Positions 10,301-63,246 of a stretch of 64,000 nucleotides of DNA are shown piece by piece. Below the pieces are notes generated by a model. The model saw only the letters and a list, made by a program, of their open reading frames with translations. It had not been told where the DNA came from and made no database searches. The stretch is taken from the NCBI RefSeq assembly GCF_051622035.1, contig NC_135362.1, forward strand, positions 7,009,501 through 7,073,500, given 5' to 3'. Source of the stretch: Arctopsyche grandis (lineage: Eukaryota; Arthropoda; Insecta; Trichoptera; Hydropsychidae). A program made the translations under genes and the position numbers. Position 1 is the stretch's first letter; each line of letters starts with the position of its first letter.

Positions 10301-11141
10301 AATACTATATTGTGCATACGTAAGAAGTATTGTTGAGTTTGCATCCCAAGTTTGGAACCCAGAGTACTCTGGTGCAAGAGACAGATTGGAGCGCATTCAG
10401 AAGAGATTCTTGAGGTACGTCAGTAGCCGTTTTGGATTAACCTATACTTCCTATGAAGATGCTTGTAGGTGTCAGCATCTACTTCCTCTTGTCAAAAGAA
10501 GGGAGATAGCTGACATCTCAACAATTTTGAACATCCTTAACGGCTCGATCGACTGTCCTCAATTATTGAGCAGACTATCATTGCGTGTACCAAATAGAAT
10601 GACTAGATGTAATGAGCTCCTTTACATACCTAATACTTTTTCTAATTATGGAAGAAGCTCATTCATCTGGCGTGCAAGCTCCACCGTCAACACACTAATC
10701 TTAACAATTTCTATGTTTGACTTATTTAATATTAATGCTATACAAGCTAGAGTAATTATTGCAAATTTGTTTTTCGATGATTAATTTTAATGAAAACTTA
10801 CGATTGTGATTATGAATTTTTATTTTGATGTATTTATTTTGTCTTTTTGTTTTTTGTTATATATTATATTTTTTTTATTATTTCATAATTTTTATCATTT
10901 TATTATTCTTATTATTTTGATATTTTTATTATACTGTTATTTCTATTTTTTTTTTTTTTTTTGTTTTCTTTAACTATCTTACTCTATTATCATTTTTGTT
11001 TCTTATTTTAAATGTTTGAGCTTTTCTTTTTTTTACCTATATGTGAAAATTATTAATGGTTTACTTAACATAATTATATTTTTTTTACTATCAATCTATG
11101 TAACTTAATAAAGTGTAAATTTTCCAAATAAATAAATAAAT
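7367..11141 (+). mobile_element. Non-LTR retrotransposon (LINE, jockey/CR1 group), apparently intact ORF2
   Basis: T-rich leader, one long ORF (7887-10784), T-rich 3' UTR and a terminal AATAAATAAATAAATG tail (about 11126-11141), typical of CR1/jockey-type LINEs that end in short repeats and not in poly(A). The leader may begin near 5537 if the H3 element at 6257-7366 is an insertion into it. I could not find target duplications. Confidence 0.8.
7887..10784 (+). CDS. LINE ORF2: AP-endonuclease and reverse transcriptase, 965 aa
   Basis: Drives target-primed reverse transcription of the element. The N-terminal endonuclease shows YYQNVRG (about 7-13), TETW (36-39) and VGDFNL (about 157-162). The reverse transcriptase spans about 470-735: SAGPDLISP, YRPIS, TDYSKAFDRIDH, SGVPQGSLLGPLLF and the catalytic box FADD (689-692), a common variant of YADD. 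The C-terminal part (about 750-900) has the ALGFVIRSSK / YVRSIVEFASQVWNP block of jockey/CR1-type elements; no RNase H is visible. The ATG follows a long T-rich leader. There is no stop or frameshift over 965 codons, so this copy is young or recently active. The exact clade needs a tree. Confidence 0.9.
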   Translation: MDSINLYYQNVRGLRTKTDIFLRNINMSNYDIILLTETWLMDTISDQELFDERYIVWRRDRNYVSLNQKRGGGCLVATKRELGVVSRPEWHSSAEDIWISLTLRSTTNHRNLLKFHICVLYLCSENIGNSFNTQLTNFLENMSTISTNYPDDRFLIVGDFNLSNIQWSQDISRGGLIPINSLRSTEMTLIDALHFCNFKQYNGVLNLFGRILDLVLSNEHLVVDACLDPLVPEDPYHKSLLITADLTFYRSLRSKPYTRFLFDLGNYNEIQNELNSVSWSYLHTVSLDDAVNSFYNLIYNLRDKYIPQKHVQSRKFPAWYTAPLKKVLKEKYKFFKKFKNYNNLADHHTFVLLRNRAKTLEKECFKNYMTIVENDISLNPKAFWSYIKSRNKNNVLPDILYHGDITADTGVDICNLFSSFFYSTFLKPVSNQSTSSYPLPTNVCSVTSSSEIGSIEIRSEKVLNILKSTDIHKSAGPDLISPIFISKCAESLTLPLTIIYKRSISEGLVPCIWKSAFISPVHKKGKKNEISNYRPISKLCIFAKILEKLVYDQLFPAISQSLSMQQHGFQKGRSVTTNLLLFNDFVTNAMNDRSQVDTIYTDYSKAFDRIDHDILLEKLLQIGIHGDLYRWFTSYITRRSQAVSLNGFISKWMNIPSGVPQGSLLGPLLFNIFIFDIEKCFQNSNVLLFADDMKIFKRIDNRNDALALQDDLFRLEAYCSINKLEINVAKCSCITFTRKLCPVDFPHSINGHRLTRVSEIRDLGVFLNSDLSFSKHIDNVVARASKALGFVIRSSKCFTSIKSYKILYCAYVRSIVEFASQVWNPEYSGARDRLERIQKRFLRYVSSRFGLTYTSYEDACRCQHLLPLVKRREIADISTILNILNGSIDCPQLLSRLSLRVPNRMTRCNELLYIPNTFSNYGRSSFIWRASSTVNTLILTISMFDLFNINAIQARVIIANLFFDD

Positions 11142-44152: not shown

Positions 44153-46591
44153 TTAATTCAATGATAATTTCCGATCGAGCCATGAAGTCGGCACAGAAAA
44201 TATGTATGAATTTTCACGTTTTTCACGCACAGACGGCAAAGAACTCCACTTGTTCAGATTTTTACTATATTTTTCCACACCTTTCCTTTTCCAATCGCTG
44301 GTAGCTCCACCTTTGAAGATTTGAATTTCAGTTTAATCAACAAATTTTAGATTTTTTAATAAATGATTATAAATGTTTGTACTTACCAATGATTACCAAA
44401 TTATTTCCCAATACGCCAGAAGCCACTCCATAGCCGGAAGTGCTCATGTCTGCTATGAAAGACCAACTGTCGGTACTTTTATTATAGCATTCTACACTTT
44501 TGAGCTTTTGAGAGTCTACTTCACCTTTTTGACGACCGCCAAATACGTAAATCTTCCCATCATATGTTGTTGCCTGTTAGTGAGAAGAATTTAGAATCAT
44601 CAATCATGATGTGAAGCATTTGCGAAGTATGGACGCTGTACTCACTGAAATCCAATGTCGCGATTCGTTCATTGGCGCACAAGTCCTCCATTTTTCAGAA
44701 CATGGACAAAAGACTTCTACATTCTTATAACCGAAGTCATCAATTGCCGATTCATTCCATCCACCTATTACATAAATTTCGTTGTCGAGAACGGTTATTC
44801 CACATCCGCGCCGACCGGTTATCATCGGTGTTGTGAACGACCATTTTCTGGTTACGGGATCCCATCTGTGATACGAGTTTTTGGATTAAAATTCATTTTC
44901 ACGAAAAAATACGATTTTCAGTAGGTATAAGGATATACTTTTCTGCTGAATTGACAGTCGTGGATCCATCATTTCCTCCAAATACGTAAATCACATTTCC
45001 TATAGCAGCAGCAACAGACCCAACTCTGCCTATTTGTAGTGATGGCAAGTTTATCTTTTTACCAGTTTTTAAATCGATACTTTCTACCTAAAAAGCGGTA
45101 CAATTTATATCGCATATTTATCTAAATTTAAATCCATCATTGGAAATACTTACAGTGTTGCGTATTTTATTGTCTTCTCCTCCTATTGCTATCAACTCAT
45201 CACCAACTAGTACATAATTGGCATTTTTCCTAGCGATATTCGTATCTAAGAATTCCAACCAGGCGTTGTCGTTCGGATTGAAAATTTCCACTTTTGAAAC
45301 ACCCTTAAATAAATGCAAAAATAAGTTGTTAGGAAAAATGTCCTTACAAAACAGTTATTCATTAAAAATTTTGAATTCTGAAACTGACCTCATCTGTTAA
45401 GCTTCCGGCTAATATAATTGTGCTTATGCGTGTTCGCGATTTGTTCCAATTTACATCCGAATTTATTATGGTATGCGGTGAGTGTTTCCATTGCAGTGCA
45501 CTAATAATAAGGTTCGGACAATTCTGCACACCTTCACACAGAGTTGTAACTTCACCGTACAGTAACTAAAATAAGTAATTTTAAGATTTGTTTGGATTCA
45601 GATTATTGAATTAATTAAAATAATTAAATAGTATATGTACATTGTCAGGTAGCATTGGTAAATTGATCAATTTCAGCAATGAAGGTAGATGGATTTTACG
45701 ATTTGGCATGTCGTGAGAAACCCAAGTTTTCACACTATCGAATATTTCAATTTCAGATGAAACGTTCAAATTCATCCGTAAAAGACGCTGCAATTTATCG
45801 ACAGAAATATCCAGAAATTGATTAGTTTGTGCTATCTATAACAGAATAGTAAATTTTTCATTACTACTATCGGAAATGAAGTCATATTTATTTTACGATG
45901 AATTAAAAATACCATTTTGTAATTTCGGAGTATGAAATTGATTACTTTATCACCCAAGGCCGTACATCCATATAAATTGGCAGTTTCATGGAATTCTAAA
46001 CAGTTTGTCGTATCGATTATATCAGACATGAAATTGCAACAAGCTTCCACGAGTGATTCTAATTGAAATAGGCCAGCTACTGTTAAAACTTTGAGGACAG
46101 TCTCGTATGAAAATTCTATGAGAAAGATGCGATTATAATTCAGAAATAATGGGATATGTACATATGAATGCGGAACTTAATCATATTTGAAAAAAAAAAT
46201 ATATATATTGCCTATTTCTCCTGTATAACAATATTCTATAGCACGTTGAGTAGCATCATTGTCCAAGTTGTTGATTGGGATCACTTTGAGTGATGGTGTT
46301 CCCACATTGTCGAATAGTTTCAAATTGAGGTATTCGCTTACTGCAGATATGACAACACTGTGCACTTGATATCTTAAAAATTATTTATCATAATTAAAAA
46401 AAATTCAAACTATGATGTTTATTACCTTTGAAATATTACATATATGTACATACATATTACCTTTGATCATTTAAAACTATTTCAACGTCATAGTATCGAC
46501 GCTGTTCGTACAGTTTGTAAATGCGATCCAAAGTGTTTGATTTATGATCAGGATTACGAAAAACGCGTGAGTTTTTTGGTAAGTCGCACAT
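44153..46591 (-). CDS. KLHL gene A: BTB-BACK-Kelch protein, 10 exons, 576 aa, apparently intact
   Basis: Predicted Cullin-3 adaptor of the kelch-like family. Exons, 5' to 3': 46591-46461, 46372-46212, 46115-45913, 45835-45641, 45565-45389, 45303-45154, 45087-44939, 44865-44646, 44573-44387, 44310-44153 (TAA). Joined they give 1731 nt with no internal stop. BTB is about residues 20-125, BACK about 130-235, and six kelch blades about 275-570 with IAIGG, YVFGG, YVIGG, YVFGG and VIIGG motifs. All introns are GT-AG except intron 2, whose donor is GC (ATAG|GCAA). The ATG starts a conserved MCDxP N-terminus and has A at -3. The BTB has YYDVEI where sisters have (L/F)CDVEI. It is the last copy of the array. 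The domains are known to bind CUL3 (BTB/BACK) and substrate (kelch); the target here is unknown. Exon borders are by reading and comparison, without transcripts. Confidence 0.9.
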
Positions 46592-46693
46592 TTTGATACC
46601 TGAGAATGTTGAGTGTGCACTGTTTGCTTTGTTAGTCTTCAATGCAATGAAACGATAATGGTAATTTATTCTTTTTATCTTGTTTTTATTATG

Positions 46694-46700
<7 letters not shown>

Positions 46701-46764
<64 letters not shown>
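46701..46764. repeat. (AT)n microsatellite upstream of KLHL gene A
   Basis: Lies between the gene A ATG and the shared upstream motif and accounts for most of their extra distance. Confidence 0.95.
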
Positions 46765-46770
<6 letters not shown>

Positions 46771-46793
46771 GTATTTTCTAAAAAATGCAATCT

Positions 46794-46808
46794 TAACCGC
46801 AAGCCATT
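46794..46808 (-). promoter_or_regulatory. Shared upstream motif, gene A
   Basis: TAACCGCAAGCCATT on the plus strand, 203 bases upstream of the gene A ATG. In the other copies the motif is 105-113 bases away; here an (AT)n tract of about 64 bases lies between motif and ATG. Contains AACCGCA, which fits the RUNX/Lozenge consensus RACCRCA. The regulatory role is inferred. Confidence 0.4.
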
Positions 46809-47019
46809 GTTTTTTAATCCGAATTATATACATATATTTGTATGTATGTATGTATGTACGTATGTATATACATATTTTTCTTTTATAAAACCATGCATTA
46901 TAAATTATCTTTTCTAGTTATAAATTATATCATTTTAAACATCTTCCTCTGCCGCAAAAAAAATTATAGTTGATATAATGATATTAAACTTATTGAATTA
47001 TGTATAATTTATATAATAG

Positions 47020-47469
47020 CACTGAGCAACAAAACATATGTTCGAAGTGGAAACTAATCAATCTTTATTAGGTTCAACTCACTAAATTCGAATATGACAC
47101 TGATTTTTGTTGGCTTGCTCTCTATTTAGAGATATGAGCGTTTAAAAAAATTGGAAATTTTACAGATTTTTGGCTTTTGCAGTCTTTAATTCAAAATAAA
47201 GTATTTCTGTGCCAATAGTGAGTATTGGAATCGATAGTTACATAGATGTTTTCCTATTGATTGTAATTTTTAGTGCTATATTTTGATTTAAGGACTGCTA
47301 AATTCAAAAATATGTAAAAATCGCACGTGTTTAAACGCTCATATCCATTAAATGAGAGCTAGTCAGCAAAAATGATTGTCACATTCGAATTAAATAGTTC
47401 AAACATAGTACAGTTATACACACGAGTCTCCGTTTCGAAACAAAAAACGTGATTTTTTGTTGCTCAGTG
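47020..47469. mobile_element. CACTG-ended element, second copy
   Basis: 450 bp between KLHL genes A and B. Starts CACTGAGCAACAAAA and ends TTTTTTGTTGCTCAGTG; flanks TAG and TAA (one mismatch). Interior shared with the 58541 copy (GAGATATGARCGTTTAAA, TTGGCTTTTGC), and partly inverted within itself. Confidence 0.6.
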
Positions 47470-48004
47470 TAATTCTCCAAAAACCCGTGGCAGATATAAC
47501 ATTTTGAGGAAGAGATTTAAAAATGTTTATTATATACATATGTCTTGCATGTCTATATATGTATGTATGTATGTAAGTACTCGACTATCCCCCCACAGAA
47601 TCTCTAACGATCCCGATAAAGATTTTCCGGGTTCATTTCTTGATAGGATCGTAGATTTGATACGCATCTTGTCCAGAAATCGGAAAAAAATATTTATCAA
47701 TTTTTCAAATGTGAATCGTATTTCTTTTAGATATTAAAAAAAATTGTGTTTTTTTGTATTAAGTAAAAATTATTTTTTGTCAAATAAGCATTTTTTTCCC
47801 ATGGTATTTAAAAAAGTATTGTTATACGAAAATATAAATGTAATACGATTATTAAAACAAAAACATATATATTTCAATCGAGACCATTTATTTATAAACA
47901 CATAATTATACATATGTACATATATACATCTATATGTAGGGTTATGGGCGTAAGCAATATGGAACACATGCGTGCTATCATTTGAAATATTTTTCTGCCT
48001 TTTT

Positions 48005-50514
48005 TCAATTCAATGATATTTTTCGATTAAGCCATGAAACTGGCACGGAAAATATATGAGAATTTTCACGCTTGTCGAGCGTGAAAGACAACGATTTCCA
48101 CTTGTTCAGATGTGCATCATATTTTTCCACAGCGTTAATATCCCAATTTACAAAGTCTGACCCGCCTATAAATGTTTTAATTGCATATGATTGAACAGTC
48201 AAAGTATTCATGTTTTATTATATTAAATGTAATATACTCACCGACAATAACTAAATCGTTTCCCAATACACCAGCAGCCACTCCATAACGAGAGCTGTTC
48301 ATGTCTGCTATGAAAGTCCAACTGTCGGTTTTCTTATGGTAGCACTCTACACTTTTGTATTTATCAGATGCCGGATTAGCCTGTTTTCTGCCACCCAAAA
48401 CGTATATCTTGTCACCAACTGATGTTGCCTGTCGAACAACATAATCATCAACACACGCATCATATTATTTACGTATGTAAAAAGTATTGCTTATTGTACT
48501 CACTGAAACCCAATGTCTAATCTCGATCAAGGGTGCACAAGTCCTCCACTTACCAGTGAGTGGACAAAAGGCTTCGACTGTCCTTACTCCGGTGTTATCT
48601 ACTGCCAAGTGCTTAGTCCATCCACCTACTATGTAAATCTCATTATCGAGAACTGCTATTCCACATCCTTCCCTACCGGTTGTCATCGGAGTTGAATACG
48701 ACCAAATTTTAGTTACAGGATCCCATCTGCAACACAAATCAACATTAAAAACTTGTATCGACAATGAAAGCATATTTCTAGTATAAAGTCATACTTTTCA
48801 ACGGAATTAATGGTACCCGAACCATTATTTCCTCCGAATATGTAAATCACATCTCCAACAGCGGCAGCAACTGATGCAACTCGAGCTTCTTGTAATGATG
48901 GCAATGTTTCCTTTTTACCTGTCTTTAAATTCACACTTTCTACCTGAAAAATTATAAATTTAAAATTAAACGAATCAAGATTAGTTAAACACGCAAGATT
49001 AGTTTGGCTGCCAAAATATATGTACATATATGGTTATAATATATGCTTATAATATTATACAAGTAAAATAAATTGTATTCACACTGTCAAAATATTATAT
49101 TTACGGTATTGTGGATCACAGTATCTTGTCCACCCAATGCTATTAATTCGTCACCAATTAGAACATAATTGGCATTTTTTCTAGTGATGTTCGTATCCAG
49201 CAATTCCGACCAGGTGTCATCGTTCGGATTGTAAATGTCCACTTTTGAAACACTCTAAAACATATGCAGAAATATTGAAACGATTTTTATGAACTTCCGC
49301 TGCATTGTTTCACCAGATTAAATTTAAAATTTTGAAACTAACTTCAGGCCACCAGCTTCCGGCCACTATAATAGTTCTAACAGGTGTTCGAGATTTGTCC
49401 CAATTCACACCCGCATTTAATCTGGCATTTGGTGAGTGTTTCCATTGCAATGCACTAATAATAAGGTTCGGACAATTTGGCACATCGTCACATAGAGGTG
49501 TTACTTCGCCGTACAGTACCTAAAATAGTATTAGGATGTGTTTATATTCAGATGAATGTATTAATTTAAATAATTAAATAGTATTTGTACATTGTCTGGC
49601 AGCATTGGTAATTTGATCAATTGTAGTAATGAAGTTAGATGTCTTTTACGATTTGGCATGTCGTGAGATACCCAAGCTTTCACACTATCGAATATTTCAA
49701 TTTCAGATGAAACGCTCAAACTCATCCGTAAAAGACGCTGCAATTTATCGGCAGAAATATCCAAGAATTGCTTGGTTTGTGCTACCTTAAATAAAATAGT
49801 AAATTTAGTCTATGTTAATATCAGAAATGAAATCATATTTATTTTACGACGAATTAAAAATACCTTTTTATAATTTCCGAGTATGAAATTGACAACTTTA
49901 TCACCCAAGGCCGTACATCCATACAAATTGACATTTTCGTGGAATTCTAAACAGTTTTTCGTGTCGATTATATTGGACATGTAATCGCAGCAAGCTTTCA
50001 CAACTGGTTGCAATTGAAATAGACCTGCTACTGATAACACTTTGAGGACAGTCTCGTATGAAAACTCTATAGGAAATTTACGATTGTCATTTAAAAGGAT
50101 TAGACATATATTTGAAATTTATTCGTATATGATAAAATTAAAAAAAAAATGCCTATTTCTCCTGTATAACAATAGTCTATCGCACGTTGAGTAGCATCAT
50201 TGTCCAAGTTGTTGAGTGGGATCTCTTTGAGTGATGGCATTCCCAGATTATCAACAAGTTTCAAATTGAAATATTCACTGACTGCTGATAAAACAACACT
50301 GTGCACTTGATATCTTTAAAATTAAGAGTATTTTATTTATTTAAAATAATAATATTTAGGAAAATGTGTTTTTGCGATATTACCTTTGATTATTTAAAAC
50401 TATTTCTACATCACATAATCGATTCTGTTGGTACAGGGTGTAAATCTGATCCAATGTGCTTGCCTTGTGTTCGGGATTTCGAAAAATGTGCACACCTTCG
50501 GGTTGGTCGCACAT
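48005..50514 (-). CDS. KLHL gene B: BTB-BACK-Kelch protein, 10 exons, 578 aa, apparently intact
   Basis: Second copy from the left in the array. Exons: 50514-50384, 50313-50153, 50066-49864, 49785-49591, 49519-49343, 49254-49105, 48943-48795, 48726-48504, 48428-48242, 48165-48005 (TGA). The total is 1737 nt, open throughout. Exon lengths and phases match gene A; exon 8 is one codon longer (WTKHLAVDNTG region) and exon 10 one codon longer. BTB core CDVEIVLNNQR, YCYTGEIE at the BTB end, a BACK domain in exons 3-4, and kelch GG doublets in exons 6-9. Intron 2 has a GC donor (ATAG|GCAT). The other donors are GT. An open in-frame stretch upstream (SKTNGTNKPISNLK) resembles those of C and D, so an upstream ATG at 50562 is a possible alternative start; MCD is preferred because all copies share it. 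The likely role is a CUL3 substrate adaptor. Confidence 0.9.
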
Positions 50515-50626
50515 TTTTAGATTTGAGATTGGCTTGTTCGTTCCGTTTGTCTTGGAGGCCAAGTTTATTGTGATGTAAATTACTATTTATATATTCATTA
50601 TATTAAAATTAAATTATAAGTCATTC

Positions 50627-50641
50627 TAACCGCAAACCATT
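50627..50641 (-). promoter_or_regulatory. Shared upstream motif, gene B
   Basis: TAACCGCAAACCATT, 113 bases upstream of the ATG. It carries AACCGCA, a RACCRCA match. It is conserved in position with C, D and E. Common ancestry alone could explain the conservation, but the surrounding upstream DNA is less alike than the motif. Confidence 0.45.
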
Positions 50642-50819
50642 TCCTTGTTTTTTTAATTAGAAATATATTTGTTGAAAACAGCTGTTGTTTTTATTGTTTT
50701 ATCTGTGTGGATATGTATATTTATTTTGAAATGGGGTCATAAAAAATTAGGTCAATAACACATAAGACAAGAATAACAACAAATTGGAATTTTTTTTTAA
50801 TTTCAACATACATACATAA

Positions 50820-51180
50820 CACTGTTCGAGACGAAAAATGGTTCAGAGACGAGATATGACTTTTCTTATAGATCTATGCCCAGTAAATACGAATCTGGTG
50901 ATAAAAAAAGTTGATTGGCTCGAGGTTCGGAGATATATGTATGTATTTTTTAAATCGTGCGATTTTTCTATATCTTCATGTTGTTCGGTCGATTACTCAA
51001 AATCTGTCAATTTCCTGTTCAAAATGAATATTGGAATCTATAGTCGGGTATTTTATCTTTCATTTGTAGTACTTTTCAGCTTTGAAATCTCTCTAAGTAG
51101 TCGTCCAGTTCAAATCAAAAGTCAAAAGTACGTATTTTTACTTGGGATTTTTTCCACTGTTAATACTATTTTATATTGAA
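50820..51180. mobile_element. Repeat starting CACTGTTCGA after TAA
   Basis: Shares about 85 bases (GGTTCAGAGACGAGATATGA, TTCTTATA, TAGATCTATGCCCAGT) with 63376-63490. Both copies lie just upstream of a KLHL gene (B and E). The right border is not defined and no terminal inverted repeat is visible. Confidence 0.45.
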
Positions 51181-51753
51181 TATTTTCCATTGAAAGATGT
51201 TTATTGGGATAGTTGAAAGTTGAAAAACAAAACTCCCCATTCCAAATGCATATCTACATTAAACTTTCGTTATAATATTCCTGTATCTGTCCTTAATTCG
51301 CCAAAAAATCGTTTCCGGTAATTACCAAAGGTGCTTTTTTGCAACCTCTAACTACACCCATCGAAAATCTTTACGCAATGTTTTAGAAGAAAAGAACAGT
51401 CCTAGATTTCACTGGGATATAACTATATATGTAATTGTCTTATTTGATTTTGAGAAATACTTTTAAACAAGCTTTTTATTTTCACATGTTTCAGAAGATT
51501 TAAACGAGGCCAAATTATCCATATAATAAATACAGAAACATTAATATTACTACGTAGCATCGATTATGGCATGTAGGTAAAAGAAAGGTAAACGATATGT
51601 AAAAAAAATGTATTTCAAACACATATACGTATGTTTATTAAAAACTATTTATTTATGCATAGTACAGTTTTTTAAAGTATGTTTATGATTTTCAAAAGCA
51701 TAGAATATTTATTATATGTATATTGAAATATGTCTCTTTGAATTTATATATTT

Positions 51754-54187
51754 TTAATTCAATGATATTTTCCGATCGAGCCATGAAATCGGAACGGATA
51801 ATACAATAGCATTGTCTCGATTTAAAGATAAGGATTTCAACGATTTCCATTTGTTCAGGTTTGCATCATACTTCTCCACGGTCGTAAATTTCCAAGTTGT
51901 CAAGTCAGCTCCACCTATTAAAATTCGAATTTTAAAATGATCAGCAAAAATTACGTCATTTTAAAAACAATATACTAACCAACAGCAACCAAATCATTCC
52001 CCAGGATCCCAGCAGCCACTCCATGACGAGGACTATTGAGGTCTGATACGAAAGACCACGAGTTTGTTTTTTTATTGTAGCATTCAACACTTTTGTATTT
52101 GTGCGACGATTCGAAATCATTTTCTCTTCGACCGCCCAAAACATAAATCTTGTCATCGACCGTTGCTGCCTGTTGATCAGAATAATCATTAAAGCCCGTA
52201 TCGGATTTGTGATGCACAAATAATAATATTATATTATGTGTAATTTACTTACAGCAACCCAAAGTCTCGCTTCATTCGTCGGTGCACAAGTTCTCCACTT
52301 TCCAGAAGTTGGACAGAAGGCCTCAACAATATTAAACCCAATGTCATTTACTGTATCCTTGTAATTCCAACCACCTATTATGTAAATTTCATTATCGAGA
52401 ACTGCTATTCCACATGCCTCCCGAGCGATTTTCATAGGGGTTGTAAATGACCATTTTCTAGTTACAGGATCCCACCTATGTACAACACAAATGAACAATA
52501 AAGGCTTATATTAATGAAAAAAAATTAAAGGTAGTGTAAAATCATACATACATTTCAACGGAGTCAATTGCTTTGGATCCGTTGTATCCTCCGAATATAT
52601 AAATCACATCTCCTATAACGGTTGCGACTGCTGAAACTCGCGCTTCTTGTAACGGTGGCAAGGTTACCTTTTTACCCGTTTTTAAATTGACACTTTCTAC
52701 CTAAAAGGATAAACATTTCATGCTATGAATTTCTACTTGTATTATTTGTGCAAAATAATTTACTTACAGTATTGCGGATTTGATCGTCTTGTCCACCTAT
52801 TGCTATCAATTCATCACCAATTAGCACATAGCTGGTATTTTTCCTAGTGATATTTGTATCCAAGAATTCCGACCAGGTGTTGTTGTTCGGATTGTAAATG
52901 TCCACTTTTGAAACAGTCTAAGAATATATATGTATTATCAAAATGTATTTATTACACATACCTTTCCAAACATTGTAGAATAGGTATGTATGTAAATGTA
53001 TTATCCAATCTTAGAACAAACCTCAGGCCACCAGCATCCGACTACTATGATAGTACTTATGGGTGTTCGAGATTTGTCCCAATTCACATCCGAATTTAAT
53101 CTACTGGTGGGCGAGTGTTTCCATTGTAGTGCACTCAGAATAAGTTGTTGACAAGTTGGAACACCTTCGCATAGAGGTTGAACTTCGTCGAAGATTACCT
53201 GAAATTTTGACTTTGTTTAGATTTTTATAGCTACATTAATATTTTGATTTAAAAATGATAGATACTTCATTTGGTAGCGATGGTAATTTGATCAATTTCA
53301 GAAACGAAGGTAGATGTTGTTTTCGATTTGGCATGTCGTATAATATCCAAGTTTTAACACTATAGAAAATTTCTGTCTCGGACGAAACGTTCAAATTCAT
53401 ATGTAAAAGGTGTTGCAATCGCTCAACAGAAATTTTTAGGAATTTCTCAGATTTCGTAACCTTAAACGAAATATGCAAATGTGATCAGTATTTGTACGAA
53501 AAAAAATTATCATTATTTAACGAGGAGTTATATATACTTTTTTATAATTTCTGATAATGAAATCAGTGACTTTATCACCTAAAGATGTACATCCATACAA
53601 ATTGACAATTTCATGGATTTCTAAGCAGTTTGTCGTATCGATTATACCTGACATGAAATCACAACAGGCATTCACGACTGGTTCCAATTGAAACAGACCA
53701 GCTGCTGTTAAAACTTTGAGGACAGTATCGTATGAAAATTCTACGGAAAGAATTGTTATATATTAATGTTTATATTATGTTTTATTAAATTTGTTAAAAT
53801 ATATGTTGGAAAAAAAAACATGCCGATTTCTCCTGTATAACAATAGTCTATAGCACGTTGAGTAGCGTCATAGTCCAAATTGTCGATTTTGATCTCTTTG
53901 AGTGATAGTGTTCCCAAATTATCGACAAGTTTCAAATTGAAGTATTCGCTGGCTGCTGATAGAACGTTACTGTGAACGTAATATCTTAAAAAAGCATGGA
54001 ATTTTTATTATTGAAAAACTAGAGCAATGATTTTAAAATGGTCTTTGGAATATTACCTCTGATTGTTCAAAACTATTTCTACGTCGCAGAATCGTTGCTG
54101 TTGATAGAGTGTGTAAATACGATCCAAAGTGTTTTTCTTGTGATCGGGGCTACGGAAAATATGAACAATTTTCGGTTTGTCGCACAT
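51754..54187 (-). CDS. KLHL gene C: BTB-BACK-Kelch protein, 10 exons, 579 aa, apparently intact
   Basis: Exons: 54187-54057, 53984-53824, 53740-53538, 53460-53266, 53198-53022, 52917-52768, 52700-52552, 52475-52253, 52169-51980, 51914-51754 (TAA); 1740 nt, no internal stop. The domain order is BTB (about 20-125), BACK (about 130-235), six kelch blades (about 275-572). Intron 2 again starts with GC (ATCG|GCAT). The exon 7/8 junction codes VEMWDP where the other copies have (V/A)EKWDP. Exon 9 is one codon longer than in A and B (RRENDFESSHK), a trait shared with D, so C and D look like the closest pair. The open frame runs upstream of MCD to 54343 with a segment like those of B and D. As for its sisters, a CUL3-adaptor role follows from the family; the substrate is unknown. 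Confidence 0.9.
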
Positions 54188-54291
54188 TTTGAGATCTGAG
54201 ATTATGTTGCGTGTTCCGTTTGTCTTGGAAGGCAGGTTCAATGTGGTGTAACATTTAATTATTGTATTCTTAGATTTATTTCGAAATATCC

Positions 54292-54306
54292 TAACCACAA
54301 ACCATT
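54292..54306 (-). promoter_or_regulatory. Shared upstream motif, gene C
   Basis: TAACCACAAACCATT, 105 bases upstream of the ATG. The one difference from B and D (G to A) keeps the match to RACCRCA. Confidence 0.45.
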
Positions 54307-54796
54307 GTTTGTTTGTTTTTACGCTGTTTCTTGTTCGAAACATCTATGCACTGTTGCATTGTTTTATCTAGACATAATTATCTTCTCTCGTTACAAAAAG
54401 CTACTTTATATCATTGAAGACTTCCTCAGATACATTAGGTTGATAATTCTTGTATCATATTCATATTATTAGTACATATGTATTTATATACATATATTTT
54501 TTATAAAATGTCAACCGCAAACCATATTCTTTTTTATTTTTAAACAGAATTAGATATATTCATCATTATACTTTATGTAAATCTCTTATTCCTCAAAAGT
54601 ATCACAAAAGGCCAACTTCCTTATTGTGAATATAAAACTTACTTTTTATGAGAATTGGAATATTTGGATTGTGATTTGAAGAGTGGATGGGTTGATGAGC
54701 AAATAATATTTTAGATGGCAGATTTATTTAAAAATAATACCCAAAAATATGTATAATATATAATTCAGTTGTAGATCAAAGTGCACATGTTCATTA

Positions 54797-55018
54797 CACT
54801 TACTGCAAGAGAATATCTAGCTTCGTTTAACGGTTTACAAATTTTAAATTTTTTAGAAAGGGTCAGAAGGCTTCATCGGTTTTAAAACTAGTTTCAACAA
54901 CTGCTATTTTTTTATTTAATCCACCTTTTATGTAATTTTAATTACTGAGAACGGCTAATCCCCACCAATTTTCATATTAGTTAAAAATGACAATTTTTTA
55001 TTTATAACATCCTAAGCA
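54797..55018 (-). pseudogene. KLHL relic G: worn-down exon 8
   Basis: Between genes C and D. On the minus strand the stretch can be aligned by eye with kelch exon 8 of C and D: TTACTGCAAGAGAATATCTA matches the exon 8 end, CAGAAGGCTTCATC the FCP segment, ATTTAATCCACCTTTTATGT the GGW segment and ACTGAGAACGGCTAATCC the VLDNE segment. Many substitutions and indels destroy the frame. A copy of the upstream motif (CAACCGCAAACCATATT, 54512-54528) lies left of it. Together they suggest an old, mostly deleted gene copy. Confidence 0.6.
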
Positions 55019-55247
55019 ATACTTATAGATTTTTATTTGAAAACTAAATGGTTAGTAAGCAAATAGTAATATTCAGTAGCAGATGTAATGTTCATCGAAA
55101 CAAAAAATGTTTTTGAAAACCATTTATTTTATAATAATACCCAACAATACGTATACATAATACATGTCTAAATGAAAGTTTATGGATTTAAAAACATACA
55201 TTAGATATTCTATTTATTATCTAAAATATTTTAAAGGCGTATTTTTT

Positions 55248-57691
55248 TTAATTCAATGTTATTTTTCGCTCTAGCCATGAAATAGGCACCGATAATATGT
55301 AAGCATTTTCACGATTTTCCGACAAGGACGCCAGCGATTTCCATTTGTTAAGATTTGCATCATATTTCTCCACGACTGTAAATTTCCATGTCGCCAAATC
55401 AACTCCACCTGTAAACATTCGAATATAAAAAAAAATATCTAAAAATATTATTTCATTTTATTAGAAATATACTTGCCAACAGCAACCAAATCATTTCCCA
55501 GGATCCCAGCAGTCACTCCATGACGAGGACTATTTAGGTCCGATATAAAAGACCAAGAATTGGTTTTTTTATTGTAGCATTCGACGCTTTTGTATTTGTG
55601 GGATGAAAATAAATCACTTTCTCTTTGACCACCCAAAACATAAATCTTGTCACCAACTGTTGCTGCCTGTTGAACGGAATAATTATTAGCAGACGTATCA
55701 GACCATATCCATGCAAATTAAAATATATCCTCACTGAAAACCAAAGTCTCGCTTCGTTCATTGGTGCACAAGATCTCCACTTTCCAGTTAGTGGACAGAA
55801 AGCATCAACATTATTATAGCCAGTGCTATTTGCTTCCAACTGGTTATTCCATCCACCCATTATGTAAATTTCATTATCGATTTCTGCTAATGCAAATGCT
55901 TGTCGACCAATTTTCATAGGAGTTGCAAACGACCATTCTCTTGTTACAGGATCCCACCTGCAACACGAATTAACAATATAAACTTGTATTATTGATATAA
56001 AGGTACGGGTAGTTTAAAATTATACTTTTCAACGGAATTTGTCGTTATTGATCCGTTGTATCCTCCGAATATGTAAATCACATCTCCTATAAGGGTTGCG
56101 GCTGCTGAAACCCGGGCTTCTTGTAATGATGGCTGGGTTACCTTTTTACCTGTTTTTAAATTGACACTTTCTACCTTAAAAAAAACACAATTGCGCGTTT
56201 TAAATTTTCCTCATATTTTTCGTGCAAAATATAATACTTGATACTTACAGTAGTACGGATTTGATCATCTTGTCCACCTATTGCTATCAATTCATCACCA
56301 ATTAGCACATAACCGGCGTTTCTTCTACGGATATTTGTATCCAAAAATAACGACCAAGTATCTTCAGTCGGATTGTAAATTTCCATTTTTGAGACAGTCT
56401 AAAACATGCATAATTTTTAAAACTGATTATGTATTATCTTCCAAAAAAGAGATTCTGGTTAAGCAATTATCGGATTATTAAAATCACTTCATCTTTCCAA
56501 CTTCCGACTGCTATAATAGTACTCATGGGTGATCGAGAAATATTCCAATTCACAGCTGCATTTAATCTTATATTTGGTAAGTGTTTCCATTGTAGTGCAC
56601 TCAGAATAAGTTGTTGACAGTTTGGGACGCCTTCGCATAGAGGTTGAACTTCCCCGAAGATTACCTGAAAAAAAGTAAAAACTGTTCATATCTTCAAAGT
56701 CGTATGAATTTATTTTAACTAAATATTTTTTTTAAAGATACATCATCAGGCAGCGATGGTAATTTTATCAATCTTAGTAATGAAATAAGATGGGTTTTAC
56801 GATTTGGCATGTCGTGAGATACCCAAGCTTTAACACTGTTGAAAATTTCGTCCTCAGATGAAACGCTCAAATTCATCTGTAAAAGACGCTGAAGTCGCTC
56901 TGCGGAAATTTTTAGAAATTCCTCAGATTGTGATATCTGAAATAAAATATGAAAATTTAATCAGTGTCGGTATTGAAAATAAAACTTTAATTATTTTACA
57001 ATTAATTAAATGTACCTTTTTGTAATTTATGAGAATGAAATTGTTGACCTTATCACCTAAAGATGTACATCCATACAAATTGACAGTCTCGTGAAATCCT
57101 AAGCAGTTTTTCGTATCGATTATACCAGACATATAATCGCAACAAGCTTTTACGACTGGATCTAATTGAAACTCACCGGCCACTCTTAAGACTTTGAGAA
57201 CAGTATCATATGAAAATTCTGTAGAAAGTATTAGATTTATACATATGTACCTTGTTATGACTAAAAATTAATTAAATTAGATAATATTTTGAAAAACATG
57301 CCAATTTCTCCAGTATAACAATAGTCAATAACACGTTGAGTAGCATCATTGTCCAAGTTGTTTATTGGGATCTCTTTGATTGACGATGTTCTCACATTAT
57401 CAACGAGCTTTAAATATAAGTATTCGCTGAGTGCTGATAAAACGACACTGTGCGCTTGATATCTTAAAAATTGATGCAATTAAAAATAAAAATAATTACA
57501 TTATACTATACATTATAGAATATATCATGACATTATATGTACGTGCTATTGTGATATTACCTTTGGTTATTCAAAACTATTTCTACGTCGCATAGTCGAT
57601 GCTGTTGGTACAGGGTGTAAATTCGATCCAAAGTGTTTGCCTTGTGATTGGGATTACGAAAAATGTGTACACTCTCCGGCTTTTCACACAT
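55248..57691 (-). CDS. KLHL gene D: BTB-BACK-Kelch protein, 10 exons, 579 aa, apparently intact
   Basis: Exons: 57691-57561, 57462-57302, 57218-57016, 56936-56742, 56664-56488, 56398-56249, 56174-56026, 55957-55735, 55666-55477, 55408-55248 (TAA); 1740 nt, open throughout. The N-terminus is MCEKPES; BTB, BACK and six kelch blades follow as in its sisters. It has two non-canonical donors: intron 2 is ATTG|GCATGT, and intron 9 is G|GCAAGT, the textbook GC-donor context, where A, B and C have GT. Using the nearby GT in the intron 2 region would add 4 nt and lead straight into a stop, so GC is required for an intact frame. Exon 5 ends WKDE where B and C have WWPE. The region just left holds a decayed exon 8 relic. 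Confidence 0.9.
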
Positions 57692-57798
57692 TTTGAGATA
57701 TGATATTATGTTTTGTGTTCCGCTTACCTTGAAAGTCTAGTTCAATGTGGTGACAATTTCAATTATTGTATCCTCAGATTTATTCCAAGAGGTCATCC

Positions 57799-57813
57799 TA
57801 ACCGCAAACCATT
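57799..57813 (-). promoter_or_regulatory. Shared upstream motif, gene D
   Basis: TAACCGCAAACCATT, 108 bases upstream of the ATG and identical to the gene B copy. Confidence 0.45.
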
Positions 57814-57966
57814 ACTTGTTTATCAACATGTAATGTTGGTTTCTATTCAAAACATATACTGTGTCTTTGTTTTATCAATAGAATATCATGTATTATATGC
57901 TAGTATTCCCAGTGGAAATTATATTGTTAAGATTTTAAAATCATCTAACAGCATCTGTCTTTAATA

Positions 57967-59541
57967 CAGTACACTCTCGATTATCCGGGCTAATGCCGGG
58001 GAGGGAGGGCACGGAAAATTGAAAAACAAGGATAATCCGAATCATAAAATTTTGACTTGGTTTCGAGTATAATATCATATTAACAACACAAATTTTTGTT
58101 TCATAATTTTAATACTCATTATTTATTAAAAAAAAAGCTTATTTAATAGTTAAGTAGATGTGTGGCCGTTAGTATCTCTAGTAATACCTCTAAAAAAAAT
58201 CTAGTCAACCAGCCAGACGAAGCATTGAAGTTGTCTACTTATCCTAATTTTTCATGGAAAAACTTGGCTGTTTCCATACACATTTGACCGCTAATTGGTA
58301 TTCCTTCTGCTCATTTTTGATTTAAACTATGTATATGAGTATAGTTGCAACCAAATCGTCGTATCTTTACATTTTCATACTTTTTCGTTTTGAAGGACCT
58401 GCAGAACTATCATAATCTCTTGCGAACGACTCTAATTTTTTTTTTTAACTATATTTTGAACAGGTATGTTAATCTGAAATATTTTCGAGCTAATCGCAAA
58501 GAAAATAATTTCACACACAAAATATTATAATTGATAATAACACTGAGCAACAAAAAATCACGTTTTTCAGTTACCGGAGCAGAGGCTAACCAATCTTTAC
58601 TAAATTTGACCCATTGAATTCGAATATGATAATAATTTTTGTTGTTTGGGTCTCTTTTCCGAGATATGAACGTTTAAACAAATGCGCAATTTTTACAGTT
58701 TTTTTGGCTTTTGCGGTCTTTAATCCAAAATATAGTATTGCTGTGCACAAAGTGAGTATTGAAATCAATAGTCAGATATTTTTTATATTGATTTTGATTT
58801 TTTATTCTTATAAAATACTTATAATTAATTTTCTAGCGAATTTTAAAAGTCAAAAATATATTTTTTTACGGATTTTTTCTCTGTGCTATTTTGCATTTGT
58901 TTGGTCAGTTTTTTATTTCAACACGTTCATAAGGATTGGTTTTCTATGTCATTATTTTTTTATTTTTATCTAAACGTACTAACTCGAGCGGTAACTGCGT
59001 TAGAAAGACTTTCATTCAGTTTCCATGAGCGTACATCAGAAGCGTTGGTGCAAGCGAAACGGCAAGCAAGAGTCCACCACTTAAGTTCAAGTGGCAGACT
59101 CTCACTTGCCATCTATATGCCACCTATCTTGCCATATATCTCGTAAAGGAGCCCCAGCCAACAAAAGTCATTATCATTTCAAATTCAGTCGGTCAAACTT
59201 AGTACAGATTGGTTAGTCTCCGCTCTGGTAATTTTTTTTGTTGCTCAGTGTAATTAAACATACGTACATATGCTTGAAAAAATTTGCTCTGAATACATGC
59301 ACTTGATCAAAAGCGACTGAAAGAATTGACGCAATAGTAAAATACATTTAAAAAGGGAACGAAAACCATTTCTGTGTGACATAATTTGTTTCAAATAACA
59401 CGCATGTTTACGGTCGCAATCAATCGGTGCGTCTCCTTATCATAATATAAGAACAAAGATTAATTAATTAAAAAAAATAATAATAATATTTTTCAATCCG
59501 CAAACCAGATAATCCGCACCCGGATAATCGAGAGAATACTG
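57967..59541. mobile_element. pogo/Tigger-like element with TA target duplication
   Basis: Terminal inverted repeats CAGTACACTCTCGATTATCC and CAGTATTCTCTCGATTATCC (right end, reverse complement), flanked by TA on both sides; 1575 bp. TIR sequence and TA target fit the pogo branch of Tc1/mariner. The interior holds a nested CACTG-ended element and no intact transposase. Confidence 0.8.
58541..59250. mobile_element. CACTG-ended element nested in the pogo-like element
   Basis: 710 bp, ends CACTGAGCAACAAAAAATCA and its inverted form TTTTTTTGTTGCTCAGTG, flanked by TAA on both sides. CACTG ends with a 3-bp duplication recall CACTA/EnSpm; the family call is inference. A related copy is at 47020. 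Confidence 0.65.
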
Positions 59542-59543
59542 TA

Positions 59544-59935
59544 TATCAGAATTAATTCAGTGACGTTACACTAAGGGACGTACATTCATATATAATGACA
59601 GAAAAATAGCCTATTTCTACATTGTAGCAAAAGTCTTAATTGTAAATAAGGATCTCTTTTGGTGATTGCGTATCAATCTTGTATTGAAGGTTACTTGCAG
59701 ATAATAAGTAATTTGAAGGTAATTTACTTGCAGATAATAAGACCGTAAATTCGATATCTTTAAAATTAAAATTTAGTAACAATTTCAAAATATTTATTAT
59801 GATTTAAATATAAATATACCATTGATTTTTCAAAACAACTTATAAGTCGATGCTGTAAATTCGGTGTGTAAATTCCATCCAAAGCGTTTGTTTTGTGATC
59901 AAAAATGTGTTCACACTTATTGTTAAGTCGTAAAT
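59544..59935 (-). pseudogene. KLHL relic F: decayed exons 1-3
   Basis: Exon 1 remains at 59935-59820, with the ATG changed to ATT and about 15 nt missing. Exon 2 is at 59757-59611 and contains a short tandem duplication around AATTTACTTGCAGATAATAA. A fragment of exon 3 (GTACATCC-like segment in the BACK start) is at about 59597-59544. Exon 2 still ends AAATAG|GC, the GC donor seen in A-D. Exons 4-10 are absent. The right end of a pogo-like element abuts at 59541. This is a truncated paralogue that has lost coding capacity. Confidence 0.75.
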
Positions 59936-60889
59936 TTTAAGATGTGTTTGTGTATAGTGTACATATGTATATAGATATTTGTAATATTAGTAAAAAAAGT
60001 GTGGTCGTCTATTGAATATTTTATTTGAATATATTACTGGAATATAATGTATTAATTTAAATAATTTAGAACACGTGCAACTTAAGATTTTTATAGTTAA
60101 TTCAATGTGATCTTTCGTTCAAGCCATGAAATCGGCACGGAAAACACGTAAGAATTTTCACGTTTTTCATGTACTGGAGCTAATGATGTCCACCTGTTCA
60201 GATTTGCATTATATTTCTCCACAGCATTAAAATTCCAATTTGCCAAGTCAGCTCCACCTGTCATAATACAAATTTAAATGATCGTTGAATTTAAAGCCCA
60301 GATATTTTATATTTATTCTCAAATGCTCACCAACAAATACTAAATCAATTCCCAATATGCCAGAAGCCACTCCATACCGGGAATTGCTTATGTCTGCTAT
60401 GAAAGACCAACTGTCAGTATGTTTATTGTAGCATTCTACACTATTGTATCTGTGAGACACTGGACTCATTTTTTTTCGACCACCTAGAACGTATATCTTG
60501 TTGCCGTGCGTTGTAGCCTGGTGAATAGAATTATTTTTAAATTCTCTCATCATATTATTTACATTCAAAATATGCTAAATTTACTTACTGATATCCAAAG
60601 CCTAATCTCGTTCATAGGTGCGCAAGTTTTCCATTTACCAGACAATGGACAATAGGCTTCTACCGTTTTTACTCCAGTCTCTTCATCCAACTCTTTAGAC
60701 CATCCACCAATTATGTAAATTTCGTTATCGAGAACTGCTATTCCACAAGCTTCTCTACCGATTGTCATCGGAGTTGAAAACGACCAAGTTTTAGTCATAG
60801 GATCCCATCTTCAATCATATAGTTAGGAATAGAGATATACATAATTATAAAACGAGAAATAGGAATAAATTAATTATGGTAGAGTTAAG

Positions 60890-61115
60890 AAAGCTAAAAC
60901 TGCAGGAGGTGTTTTTCACAGAGGTGTTCAAATGTACGAACTTCTAATGCCTTCCTGAAGGCATTAGAAGTTCTAATAACATTGCTGCTTTCTTGAAGGG
61001 TGTTAATGGATACCTTTGTGGAAGATGATTTATAATTTTTTGTTGTTATTTTGTTATTTTGTATTGTATGTATTAGCAGTTTTGCTATTTGAATAAATAA
61101 ATAAATAAATCTTCA
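60890..61115 (+). mobile_element. LINE- or SINE-type 3' end with (AAAT)n tail, in intron 7 of pseudogene E
   Basis: Ends GAATAAATAAATAAATAAAT, as LINEs of the CR1/jockey type do. It contains the perfect hairpin at 60938-60973. It makes intron 7 of gene E much longer than in A-D. Confidence 0.55.
60938..60973. repeat. Perfect 17-bp inverted repeat with 2-base loop
   Basis: GAACTTCTAATGCCTTC, CT, then the exact complement. Confidence 0.9.
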
Positions 61116-61611
61116 ACATTAATCAAGGGTACAGGATTGTAATTATGATAAAAAATATTGGTATTATAATGTCATACTTTTCAACGGAATTGATGGTTTT
61201 TGATCCATTGCTTCCTCCGAAAACGTAAATCACATCTCCCAAAACGTAATGGTGGCAAGGTCACTTTTTTACCTGTCTTTAAATTGACACTTTCCACCTA
61301 AAATATCAAATTTACATACATATATGTACGTATTATAATATAAAATAAGAGGTTAGTATTCATTCAGAGGTTAGTTAGTTTCATATATTGTATATAAGTA
61401 CTAAATTGAATATATTTTAGTTATTTCATTCCGAATTTATAATAAGTTGATATGGATTTAAAGAAATTGTGATTTTTTTAAAAAGCAGACCAAAAACGCG
61501 ATTGTCGTACGATGAATGCTTTTAAAACAACGCTGATCATGTTTGTGTTGTAAGATAAAGCAATTATATTATACATAGTTGCCCATAAAAAGTAATTTGG
61601 AATATTATTAT

Positions 61612-61615
<4 letters not shown>

Positions 61616-61694
<79 letters not shown>
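61616..61694. repeat. (AT)n microsatellite at the intron 6 donor of pseudogene E
   Basis: Runs up to the GT donor of exon 6 (61695-61694 on the minus strand), so the intron starts GTATATAT. Confidence 0.95.
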
Positions 61695-61696
<2 letters not shown>

Positions 61697-63229
61697 GCAG
61701 AAAAGATTTTATCTTCCTGTCAACCTATAGCTATCAATTCATCGTCGATGAGCACATAATTGGCGTTTGATCTAGTGATACTCGTATCCAAATATCTCAT
61801 CCAGGTGTCGTTATTCGGATTGTAAATTTCCACTTTTGAATTACTCTTGAAACATAAATATAAGAATATATTATATGTACGTCATAAACACCATAGATAA
61901 CTTTAATTCATTCAATATATTTATTTAAATCTGGATTCCTTGACAAACCTCAGTCTGCAAACCTCCAGCTACAATGATTGTACTTATGGACGTTCGAATT
62001 TTGTCCAAATCCACATCCGCATTTATATGTTTATTTGGCGAGTTTTTCCATTGCAGTGCACTCAAAATAAGTTGTTCACAATTTGGAACATCTTTGCATA
62101 GAGGTTGAACATCATCAAAGATTTCCTGAAATGCAGCTTCATAGTCGCTTTGATAATTTTGATTTAAGAATGTAAAAATATTTTTATACCGTTTGAGTGA
62201 GTGATGGTAATTTAATCAACGTTAATAATGACGTTAAATGGTTTTTGCGATTCGGCATGTCATGGGATACCCATGTTTTGACACTATCAAAAACTTCGCG
62301 TTCGGATGAAATATTCAAATTCATCTGTAAAAGACGCTGTAGTCGCTCGACAGAAATTTCTACGAATTCTTTGGATTTGCATACCTAAGGAAAATATTTC
62401 ATTTGATTTGTATTCATTTTTAAATATGTATTAAAATATTTTATGTGAAATTAAAAGTACCTGTCTGTAATTTATCGAGATGAAATCGGTGACTTTATTA
62501 CCTAGGGAGGAACAGCCGAATAAATCGACGATTTCGTTGAATTTGAGGCAGTTTTCGGTGTTGATTATACTCGCCATAAAATCGCAACAGGACTTCACGA
62601 CAGGTTCCAATTGAAATAGTCCAGCTACATTCAATACTTTGAGAACAGTATCAGATGAAATTTCTGTAGAGAGAAATGAAATCAGCATTGCATTAAATGT
62701 TGTATTGTATAAAAAATTTGAATAAAATAACCTATTTCTCCAGTGTAGCAATAGTCTATCACACGATTGGTAGCTCCATTGTCTACATTGTTGATTAGGA
62801 TCTTCTTTGGTGATTCGGTTCCATCATTATCGTTTAGTTTATATTGGAAATATTCGCTGACAGACGATAAGACGAGACTGTGGACTTGATATCTTGAAAA
62901 TTTAAATTAAGATTATCATTTAACAATTTAACAGATTGCTTAAAAACATATGGAATAGTTTAAATATATGTGTATATACCGATACATACCTTTGATTATT
63001 TACAATAATTACAACGTCGCAGAGCCGATGTTGTAGATACAGGTTGTAGATGCGATCCAAAGTGATCCCTTTATGATCAGGGTTACGAAAAATGTATGTA
63101 TTTTTGGTTGAGTCGCACATTTTAAGAAATGTTTTGTACAGCGTTTGCCTCTGAAATCTAATTCAATATGATTATGATTTAACAAAATATATCTACACAC
63201 GTTTGTTTTTTTACTATAAAATATTATCC

Positions 63230-63246
63230 TAGCCGCAAAACCACTG
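63230..63246 (-). promoter_or_regulatory. Shared upstream motif, pseudogene E
   Basis: TAGCCGCAAAACCACTG, 110 bases upstream of the ATG. It is the most divergent copy; AGCCGCA no longer fits RACCRCA at its second base, though ACCAC follows. This agrees with the decayed state of gene E. Confidence 0.35.

Follow-up and report, generated by a model that had tools for sequence, protein, structure and literature searches.

How did a row of BTB-BACK-Kelch (KLHL-type) genes come to stand on one strand of the Arctopsyche grandis genome, how far does it reach, and do its products have the features of adaptors for Cul3 ubiquitin ligases? The locus lies on contig NC_135362.1 (C8 below), in a stretch of 64,000 nucleotides that is called the window here (C8:7,009,501-7,073,500), and the genome searched comprised 475.7 Mb in 189 contigs. 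Nine related gene copies were found, A-E in the window and F-I to its right, and the phi-x-E motif, the main Cul3 contact, was missing in every one of them. Our best explanation for the whole, which we hold with moderate confidence from the sequence evidence, is a nine-copy KLHL-type tandem array that would offer multiple specificities and whose docking to Cul3 would be weakened or altered.

Results

The array and its extent

Four intact ten-exon BTB-BACK-Kelch genes (A-D), one disabled copy (E) and two relics occupy window positions 44,153-63,120 on the minus strand, as listed in Table 1. The splice models bore out the original prediction, which had described a one-strand tandem array of intact and decayed copies with a common exon plan, and the lengths it gave for the ten exons (131, 161, 203, 195, 177, 150, 149, 220/223, 187/190 and 158/161 nucleotides, nt) were exact in A-D. 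Splice sites in these four genes were GT-AG throughout, except for a GC donor at intron 2 of all four and at intron 9 of D. Introns in A-F measured 64-104 nt, the exceptions being intron 6 of B (161 nt), introns 6 and 7 of E (398 and 369 nt) and intron 6 of F (454 nt). Exon 7 of E has 120 nt compared to 149 in F, and the 29 bases fewer cause a frameshift; the matches for the exons of E other than 6 and 7 were stop-free. Runs of AT dinucleotides, seen as repeated I-Y frames, lie at window positions ~46613-46777, immediately upstream of the first exon of A, and at ~61579-61770, beside exon 6 of copy E.

A Pfam scan of A-D placed an N-terminal BTB domain (PF00651), a BACK domain (PF07707) and four to five stretches of Kelch_1 (PF01344) over the cut-off in all four proteins. 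Chance resemblance was excluded by these domains and by the matches among A-D, which run over the full length at 65-77% protein identity. Six kelch repeats were counted by reading of the alignment, and the propeller they would form is predicted from sequence. The closest solved BTB-BACK structure in a PDB search was human KLHL3 (2e-32), and the top match of full-length B was a KEAP1 chain (3.7e-72), not KLHL3.

Eight 10-kb stretches were examined in the flanks, seven to the right of the window and one to the left, and they held one more gene, copy F, with exons of 131, 161, 203, 195, 177, 150, 149, 223, 187 and 161 nt. The genome was also searched with exons 3-4 of copy B, which gave 155 reported matches, with 150 of 321 candidates scored. 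The 18 top matches all fell at C8 7.055-7.212 Mb and were exons of A-F and of three new copies, G, H and I. The other listed matches lay elsewhere in the genome at 22-51% identity, with none outside the locus above 51%. An array ending at the window edge was ruled out by F in the flank and by G-I in the genome search. The fetched pieces take G as far as exon 6 and H as far as exon 10. Of copy I they contain exons 1-8 and, at some distance, a likely exon 9-10. In G and H the first five exons are open frames. Seven copies had been predicted, with a look at the flanks advised: the four intact genes, one disabled copy and two relics stand for the window, and the extension to the right raises the total to nine gene copies and two relics. 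About 75 kb was read of the ~125-kb gap between F and G-I, and its longest open frames look, by reading, like those of transposable elements. The same type was read in the longest frames of the 70 kb that adjoin the window on the right, where a tandem repeat also occurs.

Table 1. Gene copies, relics and probable conversion tract of the kelch array (window positions unless a contig is named; aa, amino acids)
Feature	Position	Strand	Description	Basis
Copy A	46591-44153	-	Intact BTB-BACK-Kelch, 10 exons, 576 aa	Splice model, Pfam, splice sites
Copy B	50514-48005	-	Intact BTB-BACK-Kelch, 10 exons, 578 aa	Splice model, Pfam, splice sites
A-like tract in copy B, exon 3 to intron 4	49520..50066	-	Probable gene conversion	A-B identity 83-90%, introns 3 and 4 included
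Copy C	54187-51754	-	Intact BTB-BACK-Kelch, 10 exons, 579 aa	Splice model, Pfam, splice sites
Relic 1	55011-54789	-	Worn, stop-bearing exon-8 fragment lying between D and C	E 8.5e-5 against copy C
Copy D	57691-55248	-	Intact BTB-BACK-Kelch, 10 exons, 579 aa	Splice model, Pfam, splice sites
Relic 2	59918-59787	-	Worn exon-1 piece between E and D	Weak match, best E 0.042
Copy E	63120-60100	-	Disabled; exon 6 has an in-frame TGA, exon 7 is short	
Copy F	67,861-65,048 (beyond right edge)		Intact, 578 aa, ten exons	
Copies G, H, I	within C8:7.2004-7.2133 Mb		~125 kb beyond F	Genome search and fetched pieces

Descent, age and constraint

The nine array copies formed a single clade with support 100/100 and a stem of 0.64 in a tree of 135 columns and 29 rows, the latter being 42 extracted sequences less 4 duplicates and 9 with fewer than 50 residues of exon 3. 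The fork holding KLHL3 and KEAP1 was drawn open at 80/83, and the array clade was separate from it. Within the array we take A-D to be a subgroup, since a GC donor at intron 2 was found in A-D only and a tree fork (87/95, drawn open by the program) sets them together. The donor was GT in E, F, G and H, and in copy I the end of the exon was ambiguous among GT sites.

Nonsynonymous (dN) and synonymous (dS) divergence were calculated from Nei-Gojobori counts for the 10 pairs among A, B, C, D and F. Over the whole protein, dS was 0.50-0.81 and dN/dS was 0.26-0.33. A calculation by domain, as had been advised, gave pairwise dN/dS of 0.15-0.31 for BTB, 0.23-0.40 for BACK and 0.28-0.37 for Kelch, with no counted value as high as 1 in any domain or pair. 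On exons 1-5, copies E, F and G showed dS of 0.12-0.20 (0.20 for E-F) and dN/dS of 0.37-0.53. By these counts, A-D and F are old and constrained and only E, F and G are younger relatives of one another, so the array grew stepwise and mostly not recently. A recent burst was ruled out for A-D and F by their dS. The original prediction was thus right about local tandem duplication, and also in holding that no special role could be proved, whereas the local burst it proposed, if taken as recent, would fit E, F and G only.

The same values bear on two other explanations. The copies could be mostly drifting duplicates that head to decay without a selected function; the disabled state of one window copy in five and the presence of two relics would fit this, but the low dN/dS at this dS and the open ten-exon frames of A-D and F make such a course improbable. 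Falsely duplicated haplotypes in the assembly are harder still to credit. No support for such an artefact was found, and it comes into consideration only for the close copies E, F and G, while A-D and F are far apart in dS and their introns were 60-87% identical in the six pairs compared among them.

One tract of copy B, from exon 3 to intron 4, is more similar to copy A than its surroundings are (Table 1). Outside the tract, exons and introns of A and B were 67-80% identical, intron 2 among them (71%), with the exception of exon 2 (89%). The tract probably reflects gene conversion between A and B.

The Cul3 contact motif

According to the parts of PMC3616122 that deal with the KLHL3-Cul3 contact, A77, M78 and the phi-x-E residue E85 of KLHL3 touch Cul3, and the substitutions A77E, M78V and E85A severely disrupt binding (PMC3616122). 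The Cul3-contacting regions beyond alpha3/alpha3.1 are described there as less similar among KLHL proteins. The motif was scored after BTB helix 3, at the place of KLHL3 M83-S84-E85, with a rule that accepted the controls KLHL3, KBTBD2 and KEAP1 and rejected gigaxonin. Strict phi-x-E was found in 0 of 9 array copies. The aligned residues were, from A to I, V-G-T, L-G-M, L-G-T, V-R-T, D-G-T, V-G-T, V-G-T, L-G-T and S-E-I, the last of which was read by eye from the alignment, the automatic anchor being wrong. The array copies also carry K at the place of KLHL3 M78.

Twenty-two other loci were scored in the same way; nine had strict phi-x-E, four a looser variant with D, and nine were without it. 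One paralogue that bears the motif is L001, at C3:24.08 Mb. These loci came from 28 rows, 26 of which had exon 2 (L021 and L028 did not), less L053, L030, L023 and L057. L053, without the motif, was omitted because it is one gene with L030. No anchor was found for L030, L023 or L057, and M-R-E can be seen by eye in L023 and L057. The anchor used for L003 was shifted. Loss of phi-x-E in a constrained kelch subfamily was not met in our literature searches on kelch expansions, none of which was aimed at the motif.

These data suggest that the array copies may be kelch adaptors whose docking to Cul3 is altered or lost. Another possible explanation, to which we give somewhat less than an even chance, is that they are ordinary Cul3 substrate adaptors which bind Cul3 via a divergent surface, so that the copies would multiply the range of substrates. 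The intact KLHL architecture of A-D and the low dN/dS of the BTB and BACK domains agree with this, as do the lower similarity among KLHL proteins in the other contact regions (PMC3616122) and the example of gigaxonin, which is likewise without the strict motif. However, all nine copies have T, M or I at the place of KLHL3 E85 and K at that of M78, two positions at which the substitutions E85A and M78V severely disrupt Cul3 binding in KLHL3 (PMC3616122).

It is rather doubtful that the array encodes kelch dimers uncoupled from Cul3, which would bind actin or other partners or compete with ligase-competent paralogues. Absence of phi-x-E from all array copies while dN/dS stays low is consistent with uncoupling, and five of the six relatives read at C1:25.2 Mb and C11 were also without the motif, the sixth having V-D-D. 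Nevertheless, loss of the motif is not proof of lost binding, as seen with gigaxonin. We consider it unlikely, too, that a subfamily under purifying selection was uncoupled from Cul3 while keeping dimerization and a diversifying face, which would have turned ligase adaptors into non-ligase binders or competitors. Cul3 docking that is weakened, altered or dependent on a partner, as in our preferred explanation, appears more likely than docking of the textbook kind.

The binding face of the propeller

The loops and domain borders of A, B, C, D and F were assigned from sequence, not from structure. In KLHL proteins the BC loops usually form the target-facing side of the propeller; here they had 1.70 extra residues per column, compared to 0.88 in the DA loops and 0.72 elsewhere in the propeller. 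When residues were drawn at random from the propeller with the DA loops set aside, 0 of 20,000 draws reached the BC value. Pooled dN/dS was 0.40 in the BC loops, 0.25 in the DA loops and 0.31 in the remaining propeller. This pooled BC value gives no support for positive selection on the binding face; since it is below 1, divergence was detected and not selection for change. It is in the BC loops that divergence among the copies is greatest, so the array is likely to provide several binding specificities that are related to one another.

Kelch-like genes elsewhere in the genome

Of 340 candidates in a search for the BACK family, 150 were scored, and 151 matches were reported. At least 150 BACK matches were obtained, and all 150 listed rows were over the cut-off; therefore, KLHL loci are very numerous in this genome. 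The premise that KLHL genes are mostly single-copy does not apply here, and other searches pointed to further places. The array is best described as one subfamily within a very large kelch-like family of this insect genome.

The positions of 140 of the 150 listed BACK rows, those on ten contigs of seen length, leaned to contig ends: 95 of 140 lay within 5 Mb, a zone with a length share of 0.287, or 21 of 47 when counted as clusters. Examples among the listed matches are C10:1.0-2.4 Mb, C6:1.8-4.3 Mb and C8:1.5-3.0 Mb. Nine BACK exons at C2:26038234-26231738 are spaced ~21-29 kb apart, and two scores alternate along eight of them, which looks like the repetition of a two-gene block. At locus L061, a KLHL gene sits inside a 7,443-bp tandem unit on C188, and two adjoining units were identical over the 1,158 bp compared. 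The BACK exon of this gene was matched with 100% identity over 252 bases at 23 places, 13 of them on C188 (3914-111527), 4 on C41 (704709-981147) and 6 on C2 (31207-117337). We judged this kelch macrosatellite to be more surprising than the array in the window.

Other elements

A 968-aa open frame at window positions 7878-10784 looks, by reading, like an endonuclease/reverse transcriptase of the long interspersed nuclear element (LINE) type. A COX1-bearing, mitochondrial-like piece was seen at C1:36082829-36087169 (L009), with frames like nad2, cox1 and cox2 in insect order; no transfer RNA was found in it with ARAGORN. It is either a nuclear copy or an assembly insertion.

Discussion

We propose that the nine paralogous KLHL-type genes probably arose at a single chromosomal site through repeated unequal crossing-over, and that occasional gene conversion and decay would have accompanied the growth of the array. 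The intact proteins most likely form BTB-mediated dimers, in which a six-bladed kelch propeller would most likely hold the target protein. Delivery of that target to Cul3-Rbx1 is uncertain because phi-x-E is missing from all copies. A role in ubiquitin transfer, and the tissue in which it would be exercised, are conjectural steps of this scheme.

Several observations weigh against this explanation. Apparent intactness extends over at least five whole copies (A-D and F) and over exons 1-5 of G and H. Gene conversion rests on one tract, and the adjoining intron 2 is not raised in identity. The motif is also missing in 9 of the 22 other loci and so is not peculiar to the array; human gigaxonin, reported to bind Cul3, fails the phi-x-E rule and has K at M78; and L022 has K at M78 yet keeps the motif. 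Therefore, loss of Cul3 docking is offered as a hypothesis and not as a result. The BC loops are generally variable, and relaxed constraint explains them equally well, because their dN/dS is only 0.40, their dS is high (1.2) and they contain insertions and deletions.

Large kelch expansions have already been published, in the pea aphid and, on a smaller scale, in a termite, and the array is a further example. For the pea aphid, ~200 lineage-specific paralogs of Drosophila kelch are given in the relevant section of PMC2826372, and 286 additional Kelch genes make up the largest lineage-specific expansion counted in that of PMC4561433. Four pea aphid genes annotated kelch also appear in a table on the bacteriocyte response to lack of amino acids (PMC6209921), which serves as a lead only. 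What the aphid and the present genome have in common is a massive lineage-specific multiplication of kelch-type genes; the likeness is drawn from the text of those sections. Zootermopsis has 37 BTB-BACK-Kelch genes compared to 10 in Macrotermes, of the KLHL10 type that the relevant passage links to male fertility (PMC4348803). This insect expansion resembles ours in architecture. With the KLHL2/KLHL3 and Drosophila kelch group the array shares the BTB-BACK-Kelch order, human KLHL3 being its nearest solved BTB-BACK relative, but it differs in forming its own long-stemmed clade without phi-x-E.

No settled function is assigned to the pea aphid expansion in the sections cited above. The array described here is a compact, well-resolved subfamily of nine members with a range of ages, and it provides a testable clue, since the Cul3 contact is missing in all of its copies while paralogues in the same genome keep it. 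If this explanation is true, large kelch families in insects need not mean expansions of ubiquitin ligases.

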